A stretch of 64,000 nt of DNA from NCBI RefSeq assembly GCF_028368935.1, contig NZ_JAQNDK010000005.1, positions 1 through 64,000 of the forward strand, in the 5' to 3' direction. This document shows positions 44,059-49,024 of this stretch, in pieces. Source of the stretch: Sorangium aterium. Its GTDB lineage: Bacteria > Myxococcota_A > Polyangia > Polyangiales > Polyangiaceae. The position numbers were made by a program, and so were the translations under genes. The notes below the pieces were generated by a model. That model saw only the letters and a list, made by a program, of their open reading frames with translations, did no database searches and had not been told where the DNA came from. How positions within the stretch are numbered: the first letter of the stretch is position 1; each line of letters opens with the position of its first letter.

Positions 44059-44892
44059 TCAGGACCGCTTGCGGCGGCGCGCGGCGGCCACGCCCACGCC
44101 GGCGACGAGCGCCGCGAGCCCGGTGCCCGCGAACGGCGCGGAGGAGGACCCCGGCGCGGCGGCGCAGGAGACGCTGGCCTCGGCCTCGGCGTGGGCATCC
44201 ACGTTGATCTCGAGCGTGCTCAGGTAATCCAGGCAGTCCTGCAGGCTCCCGACGACGTCGACATACTGGCCGTTGCAGAACAGGGCGCCTTCCGGCTCCG
44301 AGCACTTCGCCTCACACCCGCCCTGGAGATCGACCGTGCAGTCCGCATTGCAGTCGATGTCGCAGTCGAAGTTCGCCTCGGCCTTGCACTCGCCCTCGCA
44401 GCTCGCGTCGCATTTTGCCTGGCAATCCGCGCTCGGCGGCGTCACCTCGCAGCTCGCGCCGCACTCGCCGTCGCAGCTCGCCTTGCAGGCCCCCTCGCAC
44501 TCCGCTTGCGAGCCGCTGGAGTTGGCGCTCGCCGAACACTTGCCGCTGCAATCCGCCTTGCAGCTCGCCGAGCAGCTCGCCCTGCAGTCGAATTTCCCGG
44601 GATCTACTTCGCACTTGGCAGAGCAATCCGCGGAGCAGTCGACGTTGCAGTCGGCGGTCGCGCTGGCGTTGCACTGGCCCTCGCATTTCCCGGCGCACGC
44701 CGCCGTGAGGTTGACCGGCGTGCAGCTCACCTCGCAGCCGCCCGAGGTGCGGAACTCGCAGTTTGCGCTCGCCGCTAGCTGGATATTTCCACATGCCTCC
44801 GGGCCGGGCGCCGCCGATGCCGACGAGGCGATGGCCAGAGGGATCGCAAAAGTAAAGGCACTCACAAAAAGCTGAGCAATGGTCCGTCGCAT
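44059..44892 (-). CDS. Secreted cysteine-tetrad repeat protein with MYXO-CTERM-like tail
   Basis: 277 residues from ATG 44892 with an AGGAG box. The signal MRRTIAQLFVSAFTFAIPLAIASSASA is cleaved after ASA. The mature part has 33 cysteines, mostly in blocks with a strict four-residue step: DCNVDCSADCSAKC, DCRASCSASCKADCSGKC, ECEGACKASCDGECGASC, DCQAKCDASCEGECK and DCDIDCNADC. Acidic residues and Ala/Ser fill the gaps. The tail (SCAAAPGSSSAPFAGTGLAA, then RRRKRS) fits MYXO-CTERM sorting to the cell surface. I know no named family for the repeat. The gene follows the propeller-like and copper-enzyme genes on the same strand after a 217-base gap. Confidence 0.88.
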   Translation of the reverse strand: MRRTIAQLFVSAFTFAIPLAIASSASAAPGPEACGNIQLAASANCEFRTSGGCEVSCTPVNLTAACAGKCEGQCNASATADCNVDCSADCSAKCEVDPGKFDCRASCSASCKADCSGKCSASANSSGSQAECEGACKASCDGECGASCEVTPPSADCQAKCDASCEGECKAEANFDCDIDCNADCTVDLQGGCEAKCSEPEGALFCNGQYVDVVGSLQDCLDYLSTLEINVDAHAEAEASVSCAAAPGSSSAPFAGTGLAALVAGVGVAAARRRKRS

Positions 44893-45109: not shown

Positions 45110-46159
45110 TCAGCGGCTCACAGTGTCGGCGATTTGCCCTGTTCCGTAGCGCGCCACCACGCCCTTGCGGGCTCTACCGGGTGTCGGCTGGCTAAGGAAG
45201 TCCCCGCCGACCGCCCAGAAGGCCCCTTCACCGTCGGCCCAGACAGCGTGGAGATCGGCGTAGGGCTCCTCGGTGAACTCATCGATCCAGGCCCCGTCGA
45301 CGAGGCGCTGCTTGAGCCCTCCATAACCGACGATCGCGACCTCCCCCGGGCGGCCGCACGCGACGCCGTTCACGTCGTTCGTGAGCTCTACCTCGAGCCT
45401 GCGCCACGACGCGCCGTCCGACCGGAGCACGTCTCTCCCGCCGACCGCGTACACCTCTTCACGGCTGCAGCCGGCGGCCGTGAACAGAGTGCCCTGCGCG
45501 ATCGGCGGGTCGGATTGCACTTCCCAGGTCGAGCCCGAGCGGTGCCAGATGACGCCGAACTCGCCCACGGCGTAGAGATCCTCGGACGATTCGCCCCATA
45601 CCTTGTAGAGCGCCCGGCCGGTCGCCGCCGGCAGCGGCTCTCGCGACCATGCGCTGCCGTCCCAGCGGAGGACGAGGTCCTTCTCCGCGCCCGCGCCGCT
45701 TCCGGGCGTGCCGCCGACGGCCCAGGCATCGTCGGGTGAAAACGCGATCACGCCCCACAGCGTCGCCTCCGTCCCCGTCTCGTGCTCGGTGAACGTCGCT
45801 CCGTCCCACCGCGCGGCGCGGCCGCGCTCGCCGACCATCCAGACGTCCTGCGGACCGGAGCCGGCCACCCACCAGAAGGTCGCATCCCCGCCCGCCGGGA
45901 GCTCGCGCCACCTCGCCCCGTCGTAGTGCAGCGCGAGCGCCCTGAGGCCCGTGTTGCCGAGCGGCCCCCCGACGGCGAACACGTCGTCGGGCGCCGTCCC
46001 CCAGATCGAAAGGACCGCCCTGTCGAGGTCGTCTTCGTCGAGCAGCACGCGCCACGCCGGCGGCTCCTGCTCAGGAGGCCTCGCAGGATCGCCGGGGCAG
46101 CCGGCGAGGGCGACCGCGCCGAGCGCCGCCAGAGCCATCGAGTGAGAGCAGATGCGCAT
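45110..46159 (-). CDS. Lipoprotein with beta-propeller-like repeats
   Basis: 349 residues from ATG 46159 (MRICSHSMALAALGAVALAGC, lipobox Cys 21). The mature chain consists of repeated units with a W/F-G-x-(S/A)-x-(D/E)-D-(V/L)-(F/W/Y)-A/M-V-G core: SIWGTAPDDVFAVGGP, GSGPQDVWMVGERG, IAFSPDDAWAVGGT, VWGESSEDLYAVGEFG, AGCSREEVYAVGGR and VWADGEGAFWAVGGD. The units are about 45-50 residues, with the phrase LHYDGARWRELP-type linking strands. Such repeats form multi-bladed propellers and are common in myxobacterial exported proteins of unknown function. It lies 88 bases downstream of the copper-enzyme gene and upstream of the Cys-repeat gene. Confidence 0.85.
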   Translation of the reverse strand: MRICSHSMALAALGAVALAGCPGDPARPPEQEPPAWRVLLDEDDLDRAVLSIWGTAPDDVFAVGGPLGNTGLRALALHYDGARWRELPAGGDATFWWVAGSGPQDVWMVGERGRAARWDGATFTEHETGTEATLWGVIAFSPDDAWAVGGTPGSGAGAEKDLVLRWDGSAWSREPLPAATGRALYKVWGESSEDLYAVGEFGVIWHRSGSTWEVQSDPPIAQGTLFTAAGCSREEVYAVGGRDVLRSDGASWRRLEVELTNDVNGVACGRPGEVAIVGYGGLKQRLVDGAWIDEFTEEPYADLHAVWADGEGAFWAVGGDFLSQPTPGRARKGVVARYGTGQIADTVSR

Positions 46160-46247
46160 GGGATAGAAGACCAGCCTGGAGAGGTCCTGCCGGCGCGCCG
46201 CCGAGGTCGGCCCACGCGGGTCTACCTGGCGCGTCGCCATGAGCGGC

Positions 46248-47348
46248 TCAGTTGCAGAACACGTCGTCCTGCTTCGGATAGTAATAGACGAAGATGTTGC
46301 AGTGCTCGTTCTTCTCGACGATCGGCCCGAACGTGTAGCAGCAATCGAGCGACTCTTCGGCTGTCCCGTTCTTGGCAACGTCGTAATCGTCGAGGCCCTT
46401 GCACCCCACGGACGGGTCCGGCTGCTGCCACTCGAAGGTGCATCCGTACCAGACGCCGCCGTTCGTCGGGAGCTCCCTGTCGAGCTCCGGCGCGATCAGC
46501 ATCGGCGGGTCGTCCCACGCGCTCGATGTGTAGAAGCGATCCGAGGCCGGAGGCGTGCCGATGGTCTTGCCGTCCCATGCATACATGTCGAACCGCGTGC
46601 CTCGGCTGTGGAAATGGCCGTTGGCGCCGATGATCCTCACGGGAGAGGGGCTGTTGATCTGGCACGAGCCCTCGAACGTGGGCGTCGGGTTCGACTGACA
46701 GACACGGATGGACTGCTTGGTCGCGAAGACGGTGCCCATCTCGGCCTTGACCTCGGCGTCGGGCAGCGCCCAGAAGTTCACCCGGACGCGGCCGACCGCC
46801 TCGGGGGTCTTCTGCGACGTCGCATTCACGTAATGCGTCTGCAGCATCAGCCACTCGTCGGGCGCGAGGACGTTCGCGACGCCCTCGGGGAACTCCCAGT
46901 CGACCTGGCCGTTCTGCTGGGAGTTCGCGATGAGCGGCCAGTCGGCCCAGTTGGGGCTCTTGAAGCACTCCCCCACCCCGTTCTGGTTCTTCTGGATGCG
47001 CCCGCCCTCCGGCCCCAGCCCCTTCACGGTCTTCACGCGGAAGATGTTCATGTGGTGCGAGCCGTCGCGCTGCGCGATCTGCACGCGGTGCAGGTTCACG
47101 GGCTTCGCCGGGTCCAGCCCGTTCGACGCGGCGAGCTCGCTGACCTTGAAGAAGTAGCAGTCCTGCTGCTCGACCCCCGCCGGCACCTCGGTCTCCTCGG
47201 TCTGCATCTGGAAGCCCTGGCCGACCGGCGGCACATCCAGCAGCGACTCGTCGACCGGCACGGGCGTCACGCCCCCGCCCCCGTCAACGCAGGCCACGGC
47301 CCCCAGGACGACGGGAAGCAAACCAAGCGTCAGGCATCGAACCGCCAT
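46248..47348 (-). CDS. PHM-like type II copper, ascorbate-dependent monooxygenase family lipoprotein
   Basis: 366 residues from ATG 47348, with a GGAGGGAC box. The signal ends LGAVAC (Cys 20, lipobox). The layout follows peptidylglycine alpha-hydroxylating monooxygenase: GSHHMNIF (His 98-99; first copper site), LQTHYVNAT (His 172; third ligand of that site), GHFHSRG (His 245 and 247; second copper site), and near the end NEHCNIFVYYY (349-357). In PHM the last segment reads DEMCNLYIMYY with the Met binding the second copper, so His 349 replaces that Met here. The enzyme is predicted to act outside the cytoplasm. The substrate is unknown and no lyase domain is present. Confidence 0.8.
   Translation of the reverse strand: MAVRCLTLGLLPVVLGAVACVDGGGGVTPVPVDESLLDVPPVGQGFQMQTEETEVPAGVEQQDCYFFKVSELAASNGLDPAKPVNLHRVQIAQRDGSHHMNIFRVKTVKGLGPEGGRIQKNQNGVGECFKSPNWADWPLIANSQQNGQVDWEFPEGVANVLAPDEWLMLQTHYVNATSQKTPEAVGRVRVNFWALPDAEVKAEMGTVFATKQSIRVCQSNPTPTFEGSCQINSPSPVRIIGANGHFHSRGTRFDMYAWDGKTIGTPPASDRFYTSSAWDDPPMLIAPELDRELPTNGGVWYGCTFEWQQPDPSVGCKGLDDYDVAKNGTAEESLDCCYTFGPIVEKNEHCNIFVYYYPKQDDVFCN

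Positions 47349-47791: not shown

Positions 47792-49024
<1,233 letters not shown>

Follow-up and report, generated by a model that had tools for sequence, protein, structure and literature searches.

It has long been asked why the catalytic copper of PHM (peptidylglycine alpha-hydroxylating monooxygenase) and DBH (dopamine beta-hydroxylase) requires a thioether ligand, and the question has so far been approached via point mutants such as M314I. A gene in the window, which is the whole 64,000-nucleotide stretch of Sorangium aterium DNA that was analysed, raises the question in a natural setting: has a PHM-like enzyme exchanged the CuM methionine for a histidine, and what would such an enzyme do? 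A sequence-only reading had described the gene product as a PHM-like copper monooxygenase and bacterial lipoprotein in which exactly this exchange has occurred. On balance, and with moderate confidence, the product is best explained as a two-copper enzyme with the PHM/DBH fold that is secreted and anchored by lipid, with His349 taking the place of the methionine so that both coppers have three-His sites.

The gene and its product

The gene (Table 1) was found to be exactly the open reading frame described in the earlier reading, with His98/His99, His172 and His245/His247 all present in the sequence, and a GGAGGG sequence is located four bases 5' of the ATG. The N-terminus of the product consists of an apparent signal peptide followed by the PHM-type core, and the enzyme is putatively lipid-anchored at Cys20, a position that is occupied by cysteine in 76 of 80 rows. 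The source genome is 13.47 Mb in size, and the nearest named relatives of the enzyme recovered in a pattern-based scan were five Sorangium records with 79–84% identity.

Table 1. Coordinates of the features discussed, numbered from the first letter of the window.
Feature	Position	Strand	Basis or remark
His-type PHM-like lipoprotein, 366 aa plus stop	46248..47348	minus	ORF, conservation, alignments, model
Codon of His349 (cac), site of PHM Met314	46302..46304	minus	47348 minus 3 x 348
Codons 245-247, His-Phe-His, two CuM histidines	46608..46616	minus	ORF and PHM alignment
Codons 98-99, His-His, two of the CuH histidines (third: His172)	47052..47057	minus	ORF and PHM alignment
WG..PDDVFAVG-repeat lipoprotein	45110..46240	minus	Downstream; start ATG 46240 or 46159
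Secreted Cys-rich protein, 33 Cys in 277 aa, 20 CxxxC spacings	44059-44892	minus	Second gene downstream
Serine/threonine kinase-like gene	47792-49021	plus	Divergent from enzyme; Pkinase E 8.7e-33

Alignment with PHM and DBH

A profile of 27 family members was compared with the PDB, and matched rat PHM (8dsl, E 1.8e-6; 1opm, E 2e-6) and human DBH (4zel, E 5.6e-6). In the alignment of this profile with PHM, GsHHlnlF lies under TVHHMLLF at the CuH histidine pair, lQtHyvN under LQVHYGD at the third CuH histidine, HFHsRG under HTHHLG at the CuM HxH pair and EHCnlFvyYY under EMCNLYIMYY at the third CuM ligand. His98/99, His172, His245/247 and His349 align with PHM His107/108, His172, His242/244 and Met314, respectively (residue names from the available part of PMC6123673), and we infer that CuH is bound by His98, His99 and His172 and CuM by His245, His247 and His349.

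The critical segment of the window protein reads NEHCNIFVYYY, and both the open reading frame and the profile alignment place His349 where PHM has methionine, as had been proposed. A search for another residue that might fill the CuM methionine place found none, either in the profile comparison with PHM or in an hhalign comparison with 20 Met-type bacterial homologues (probability 100, E 1e-60), in which His349 fell on the methionine. The invariant columns of the family include no methionine.

The window protein alone scored below the Pfam cut-offs for Cu2_monoox_C (PF03712; 17.5 bits, cut-off 23) and Cu2_monooxygen (PF01082; 14.9 bits, cut-off 30), and a phmmer search of the PDB with the single sequence gave no match, so the resemblance to PHM is weak when judged from one sequence. 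Despite these missed cut-offs, the profile matches indicate that the family of the window protein is related to PHM/DBH. No other family for the window protein was found in Pfam or NCBIfam.

The possibility that His349 represents an alignment slip was also considered, as sequences of the His family are one residue longer ahead of the motif. This was ruled out because the Glu preceding the position is common to both types, because the alignments with PHM and with the Met-type profile agree, and because three Met-type rows (L210, L226 and L247) that carry the same extra residue still read EMC.

Predicted fold of the enzyme

An AF2 model of the window enzyme (76 sequences) had a pLDDT of 92.9 and a pTM of 0.87, and the PHM/DBH fold covers residues 38–366 of the model, including the His349 segment. 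The best fold match was a PHM structure, 6ala_C (Z 23.8, rmsd 3.1 over 266), the second best was 5wja_D (Z 23.3), and PHM 1sdw (Z 21.8, rmsd 3.4 over 268) and DBH 4zel_A (Z 21.3, rmsd 3.5 over 268) also matched. PHM structures as a group matched the model at Z 18.3–23.8, with 12–14% identity on the structural alignments, and the best unrelated fold reached Z 9.2. Foldseek matched the model to the PHM/DBH fold with an E value of 1.2e-12. PHM and DBH are hence the only clear fold matches of the predicted structure.

Two His3 sets are also the ligand count of type 3 coppers. This count, together with the closed form of DBH and the identity of the best fold match, supports a picture in which the two domains would close and bring both coppers into a coupled, type-3-like His3/His3 centre within the PHM fold, paired with the Ig-like lipoprotein described below. 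Such a coupled, closed state has been suggested for DBH, with a modelled Cu–Cu distance of about 4–5 Å in chain A and most copper positions placed by hand, according to the available part of PMC4846438. The best match, 6ala, is a PHM mutant whose C-domain has turned towards the N-domain by about 18 degrees, giving a closed form (PMC6123673, available part), and it scores above 1sdw (Z 23.8 and 21.8, respectively). However, the available part of PMC6123673 does not describe 5wja_D, which matches nearly as well, as having this closed form, and the domain angles of AF2 models are weak evidence; both weaken the case, and a coupled centre is considered improbable. If true, it would link the uncoupled chemistry of PHM with that of the tyrosinase type.

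Distribution and origin of His349

A match to the enzyme was found in 126 of the 317 genomes of the class. Among the matches listed, the motif was read in 89 from outside the source genome and in two from within it (L010 and L003), and 79 have histidine and 12 methionine. The 79 His-type members (78 relatives and the window's own protein) come from 76 of the 317 genomes, and all six histidines are identical in every one of them, though family members are only 30–85% identical to the window protein. The Met-type sequences (L089–L099 and the paralogue L003 from the source genome) read Glu-Met-Cys at CuM. An isolated mutation or sequencing error at His349 was ruled out by the agreement of 79/79 family members.

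A pattern-based scan of 84,980 species genomes recovered 95 relatives, 80 of which were kept. Their titles were mostly Sorangium, Polyangium, Minicystis or Archangium, or those of metagenome-assembled genomes (MAGs) titled Myxococcales, Polyangiaceae, Kofleriaceae or Deltaproteobacteria, with one each titled Bacteroidetes and Armatimonadetes. When these 80 relatives were taken with 30 further loci, His349 was present in 109 of 110 rows, a count that is not independent of the 79 above, as the 110 rows (L100–L209) largely repeat genes L010–L088 from the same contigs. The single exception, L172, is short (219 aa) and its C-terminus is unaligned. Methionine occupies the place of His349 in 40 of 40 next-nearest homologues, which were a selection picked by hand from the lower rows of the homologue list. 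In the phylum of the MAG titled Bacteroidetes, 21 of 296 genomes, that MAG included, had a match, and 14 further loci read from this phylum comprise 13 with methionine and a distant His type, L263, with the motif EHDN. Viral contigs were also scanned; the 19 pattern matches included no relative, and a virus-borne gene is not supported.

In a tree of 77 picked rows (31 His and 46 Met), constructed by a short search with the CuM column removed, L263 left out and SH-aLRT as the only support measure, the His rows lay on one side of a single branch (SH-aLRT 97). One Met/His change is needed on this tree, suggesting that the swap apparently happened once among these rows. The direction was likely Met to His, as the nine paralogues in the source genome, PHM and DBH all have methionine, but the tree is unrooted and this direction is not proven while its root is not fixed.

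The core cysteines at positions 64, 128, 229, 303, 350 and 365 are each conserved in 76–78 of 80 rows, and may pair as disulfides that brace the domains. Two rows, L177 and L179, have lost all six of these cysteines together but keep all six histidines; they are the relatives from the MAGs titled Bacteroidetes and Armatimonadetes. This loss, together with the EHDN motif of L263, indicates that His349 is kept independently and is not a by-product of the adjoining cysteine.

The absence of methionine, a soft Cu(I) ligand, from the CuM place in 79/79 members would also suit a second site that holds Zn, Fe or Mn, in which case the protein would be a hydrolase, a lyase or a non-copper oxygenase; it is established chemistry that a His3 set is not specific for copper. 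However, neither the His-His...His set at the first site nor Gln170 has changed, which fits a two-copper electron-transfer enzyme, and as noted above the protein databases offered no alternative family. We give little credence to a different metal.

Pocket residues and the substrate

The preferred two-copper enzyme would retain part of the PHM pocket. Gln170, which in PHM takes part in a network of water molecules and the substrate (PMC6123673, available part), was found in 110/110 rows and in 79/79 family members, and the Asn located two residues after His349 was found in 109/110 rows. Among the family members read, Arg249-Gly250 is present in 79/79 and Asn351 and Phe353 in 78/79 each. These pocket residues are not strictly kept, as L263 has Glu at the Gln170 position and residues 351 and 353 of L087, a sequence outside the 110 rows, are Glu and Tyr, 353 being the position of PHM Tyr318.

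In PHM, Arg240 and Tyr318 anchor the carboxylate of the peptide substrate. Using positions taken from the PHM profile alignment, the Arg240 position was found to be Asn, Thr or Ser in 110/110 rows and the Tyr318 position to be Phe in 109/110. As equivalents of both anchors are absent from the window protein, peptide amidation is unlikely. A peptidylglycine amidating enzyme that works like PHM despite the ligand change would be in keeping with PHM as the best fold match and with the resemblance of the C-domain segment to DEMCNLYIMYY, but the replacement of the anchors throughout the rows, Tyr being seen in L087 outside that set, and a propeller-like neighbour without a Pfam match make this function very improbable.

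The companion lipoprotein and other neighbouring genes

Gene calling and profile searches identified a companion of the enzyme, an Ig-like Cys-containing lipoprotein. Homologues of it occurred in 67 of 80 loci, and in 54 of the 80 one lies immediately downstream of the enzyme gene in the same orientation. The arrangement differs in Sorangium, where the companion is encoded away from the enzyme, at another place in the genome; it was found in four of the six genomes of the genus. The source genome carries it (L252; G000:C5:672389-672985) about 625 kb from the enzyme.

Co-occurrence was assessed over the 317 genomes. Using thresholds of E<=1e-60 for the enzyme, which leaves out the His-type G091, and E<=1e-25 for the companion, the enzyme was found in 75 genomes and a strong companion in 66; both were present in 64, the enzyme alone in 11, the companion alone in 2 and neither in 240. 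With the companion threshold at E<=1e-8, the corresponding numbers were 64, 11, 12 and 230. The association is strong (Fisher p about 1e-52), though the genomes are related and this value overstates their independence. The companion-less genomes comprise nine from deeper branches of the family (G131, G139, G141, G143, G183, G230, G232, G235 and G242) and two Sorangium drafts (G300 and G301), indicating that a strong companion match is a feature of the main subclade. Two genomes, G219 and G220, each have seven companion-type matches, some of them side by side, and one His-type enzyme match, and this is an expansion of the companion family.

The model of the companion (pLDDT 86.1, pTM 0.75) is an Ig-like sandwich. 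It had no clear fold relative, the best match being a carbohydrate-binding module at Z 7.8 with no Foldseek match under E 0.001, and no DOMON row appeared among the best fold matches shown. Searches of Pfam with three members gave nothing over the cut-off (best, ThiS at E 0.22), and a search of NCBIfam with one member gave no match.

The repeat lipoprotein directly downstream of the enzyme in the window is predicted from its repeats to be a beta-propeller. Of 80 related loci, 34 have a homologue within 2.5 kb downstream in the same orientation, and the protein gave no match in NCBIfam or, up to E 1, in Pfam. Homologues of the divergent kinase, not necessarily orthologues, were found at 21 loci, and those of the Cys-rich protein at 13 loci, the window being included in both counts. 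The C-terminal tail of the Cys-rich protein resembles a MYXO-CTERM anchor.

The presence of this 33-Cys secreted protein as the second gene downstream in the window's own lineage is consistent with another reading, namely that the product is a secreted protein that binds copper without catalysis: the PHM fold would have been retained to capture, store or deliver copper, and selection would have favoured the His3 CuM site for holding Cu(II) more tightly rather than for O2 chemistry. In rat PHM, the M314I replacement led to an altered conformation and lower thermal stability (PMC6123673, available part), and since this change is harmful, a histidine at the methionine place may likewise give a non-catalytic site. 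The swap also removes a ligand that all 40 of the picked next-nearest homologues have, and the enzyme has no fused redox partner domain, whereas an N-terminal CxxCH motif precedes the core in seven of the nine Met-type paralogues in the source genome. However, Gln170, Arg249-Gly250, Asn351 and Phe353 are fixed or nearly so, though needless for mere binding, and the Cys-rich neighbour is limited to its 13 loci. A binder without catalytic activity is thus rather unlikely, though it is the alternative to which we give most weight.

Proposed function of the enzyme

The family is read here as a His3-CuM sister family of PHM/DBH. In the preferred catalytic reading, electrons would enter at CuH (His98, His99 and His172), O2 would be activated at the His3 CuM site (His245, His247 and His349), and the substrate oxidised would be other than a glycine-extended peptide. 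Among the neighbouring genes, none was noticed that would supply electrons. The companion Ig-like lipoprotein, often together with the propeller-like lipoprotein, may serve in substrate capture, docking or copper supply. These roles of the companion, like the lipid anchor, copper binding, coordination by His349 and monooxygenase chemistry, are predicted from the features described above.

The family provides a natural Met/His swap for which Met-type paralogues encoded in one genome with it can serve as controls, and it allows O2 activation at a His3 CuM site, the coupling of the coppers and the identity of the substrate to be addressed. The companion lipoprotein family offers a genetic handle on the pathway.

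Comparison with known copper proteins

Laboratory work on an M314H variant of rat PHM has reportedly been carried out. A search of open-licence full-text literature, which most subscription papers lie outside, found no bacterial PHM-like protein with histidine at CuM, and the available part of PMC6529398 contains no word beginning 'bacteria' or 'prokaryot'.

Met-type bacterial Cu2_monoox_C proteins include nine paralogues in the source genome (L001–L009), which belong to the same two-domain family as the window enzyme but have Glu-Met-Cys at CuM in 9/9 cases. One of eight paralogues scanned, L005, passed a Pfam cytochrome cut-off (PF13442, 28.0 against 27), and the CxxCH sequences are possible haem-c motifs that would act as built-in electron donors of bacterial PHM-like enzymes.

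Rat PHM (1phm, 1sdw, 1opm and 6ala) shares with the window enzyme the two-domain fold, at the Z scores given above, as well as the three CuH histidines, the CuM HxH pair, Gln170, the Asn two residues past the CuM ligand and equivalents of the C-domain cysteines. It differs in having Met314 at CuM in place of His349 and in having Arg240 and Tyr318, and unlike PHM the window enzyme is a putative lipoprotein and has no PAL domain.

Human DBH (4zel) shares the fold of the catalytic core (Z 21.3). According to the available part of PMC4846438, its CuH ligands are His262/263/333 and its CuM ligands His412/414 and Met487, the last being histidine in the family of the window protein, and it includes DOMON and dimerisation domains that are absent from the window enzyme. 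The type 3 dicopper proteins, tyrosinase and hemocyanin, have two His3 sets, as does the window enzyme, and their coupled coppers are 2.2–4.9 Å apart (PMC4846438, available part), but the fold here is that of PHM.
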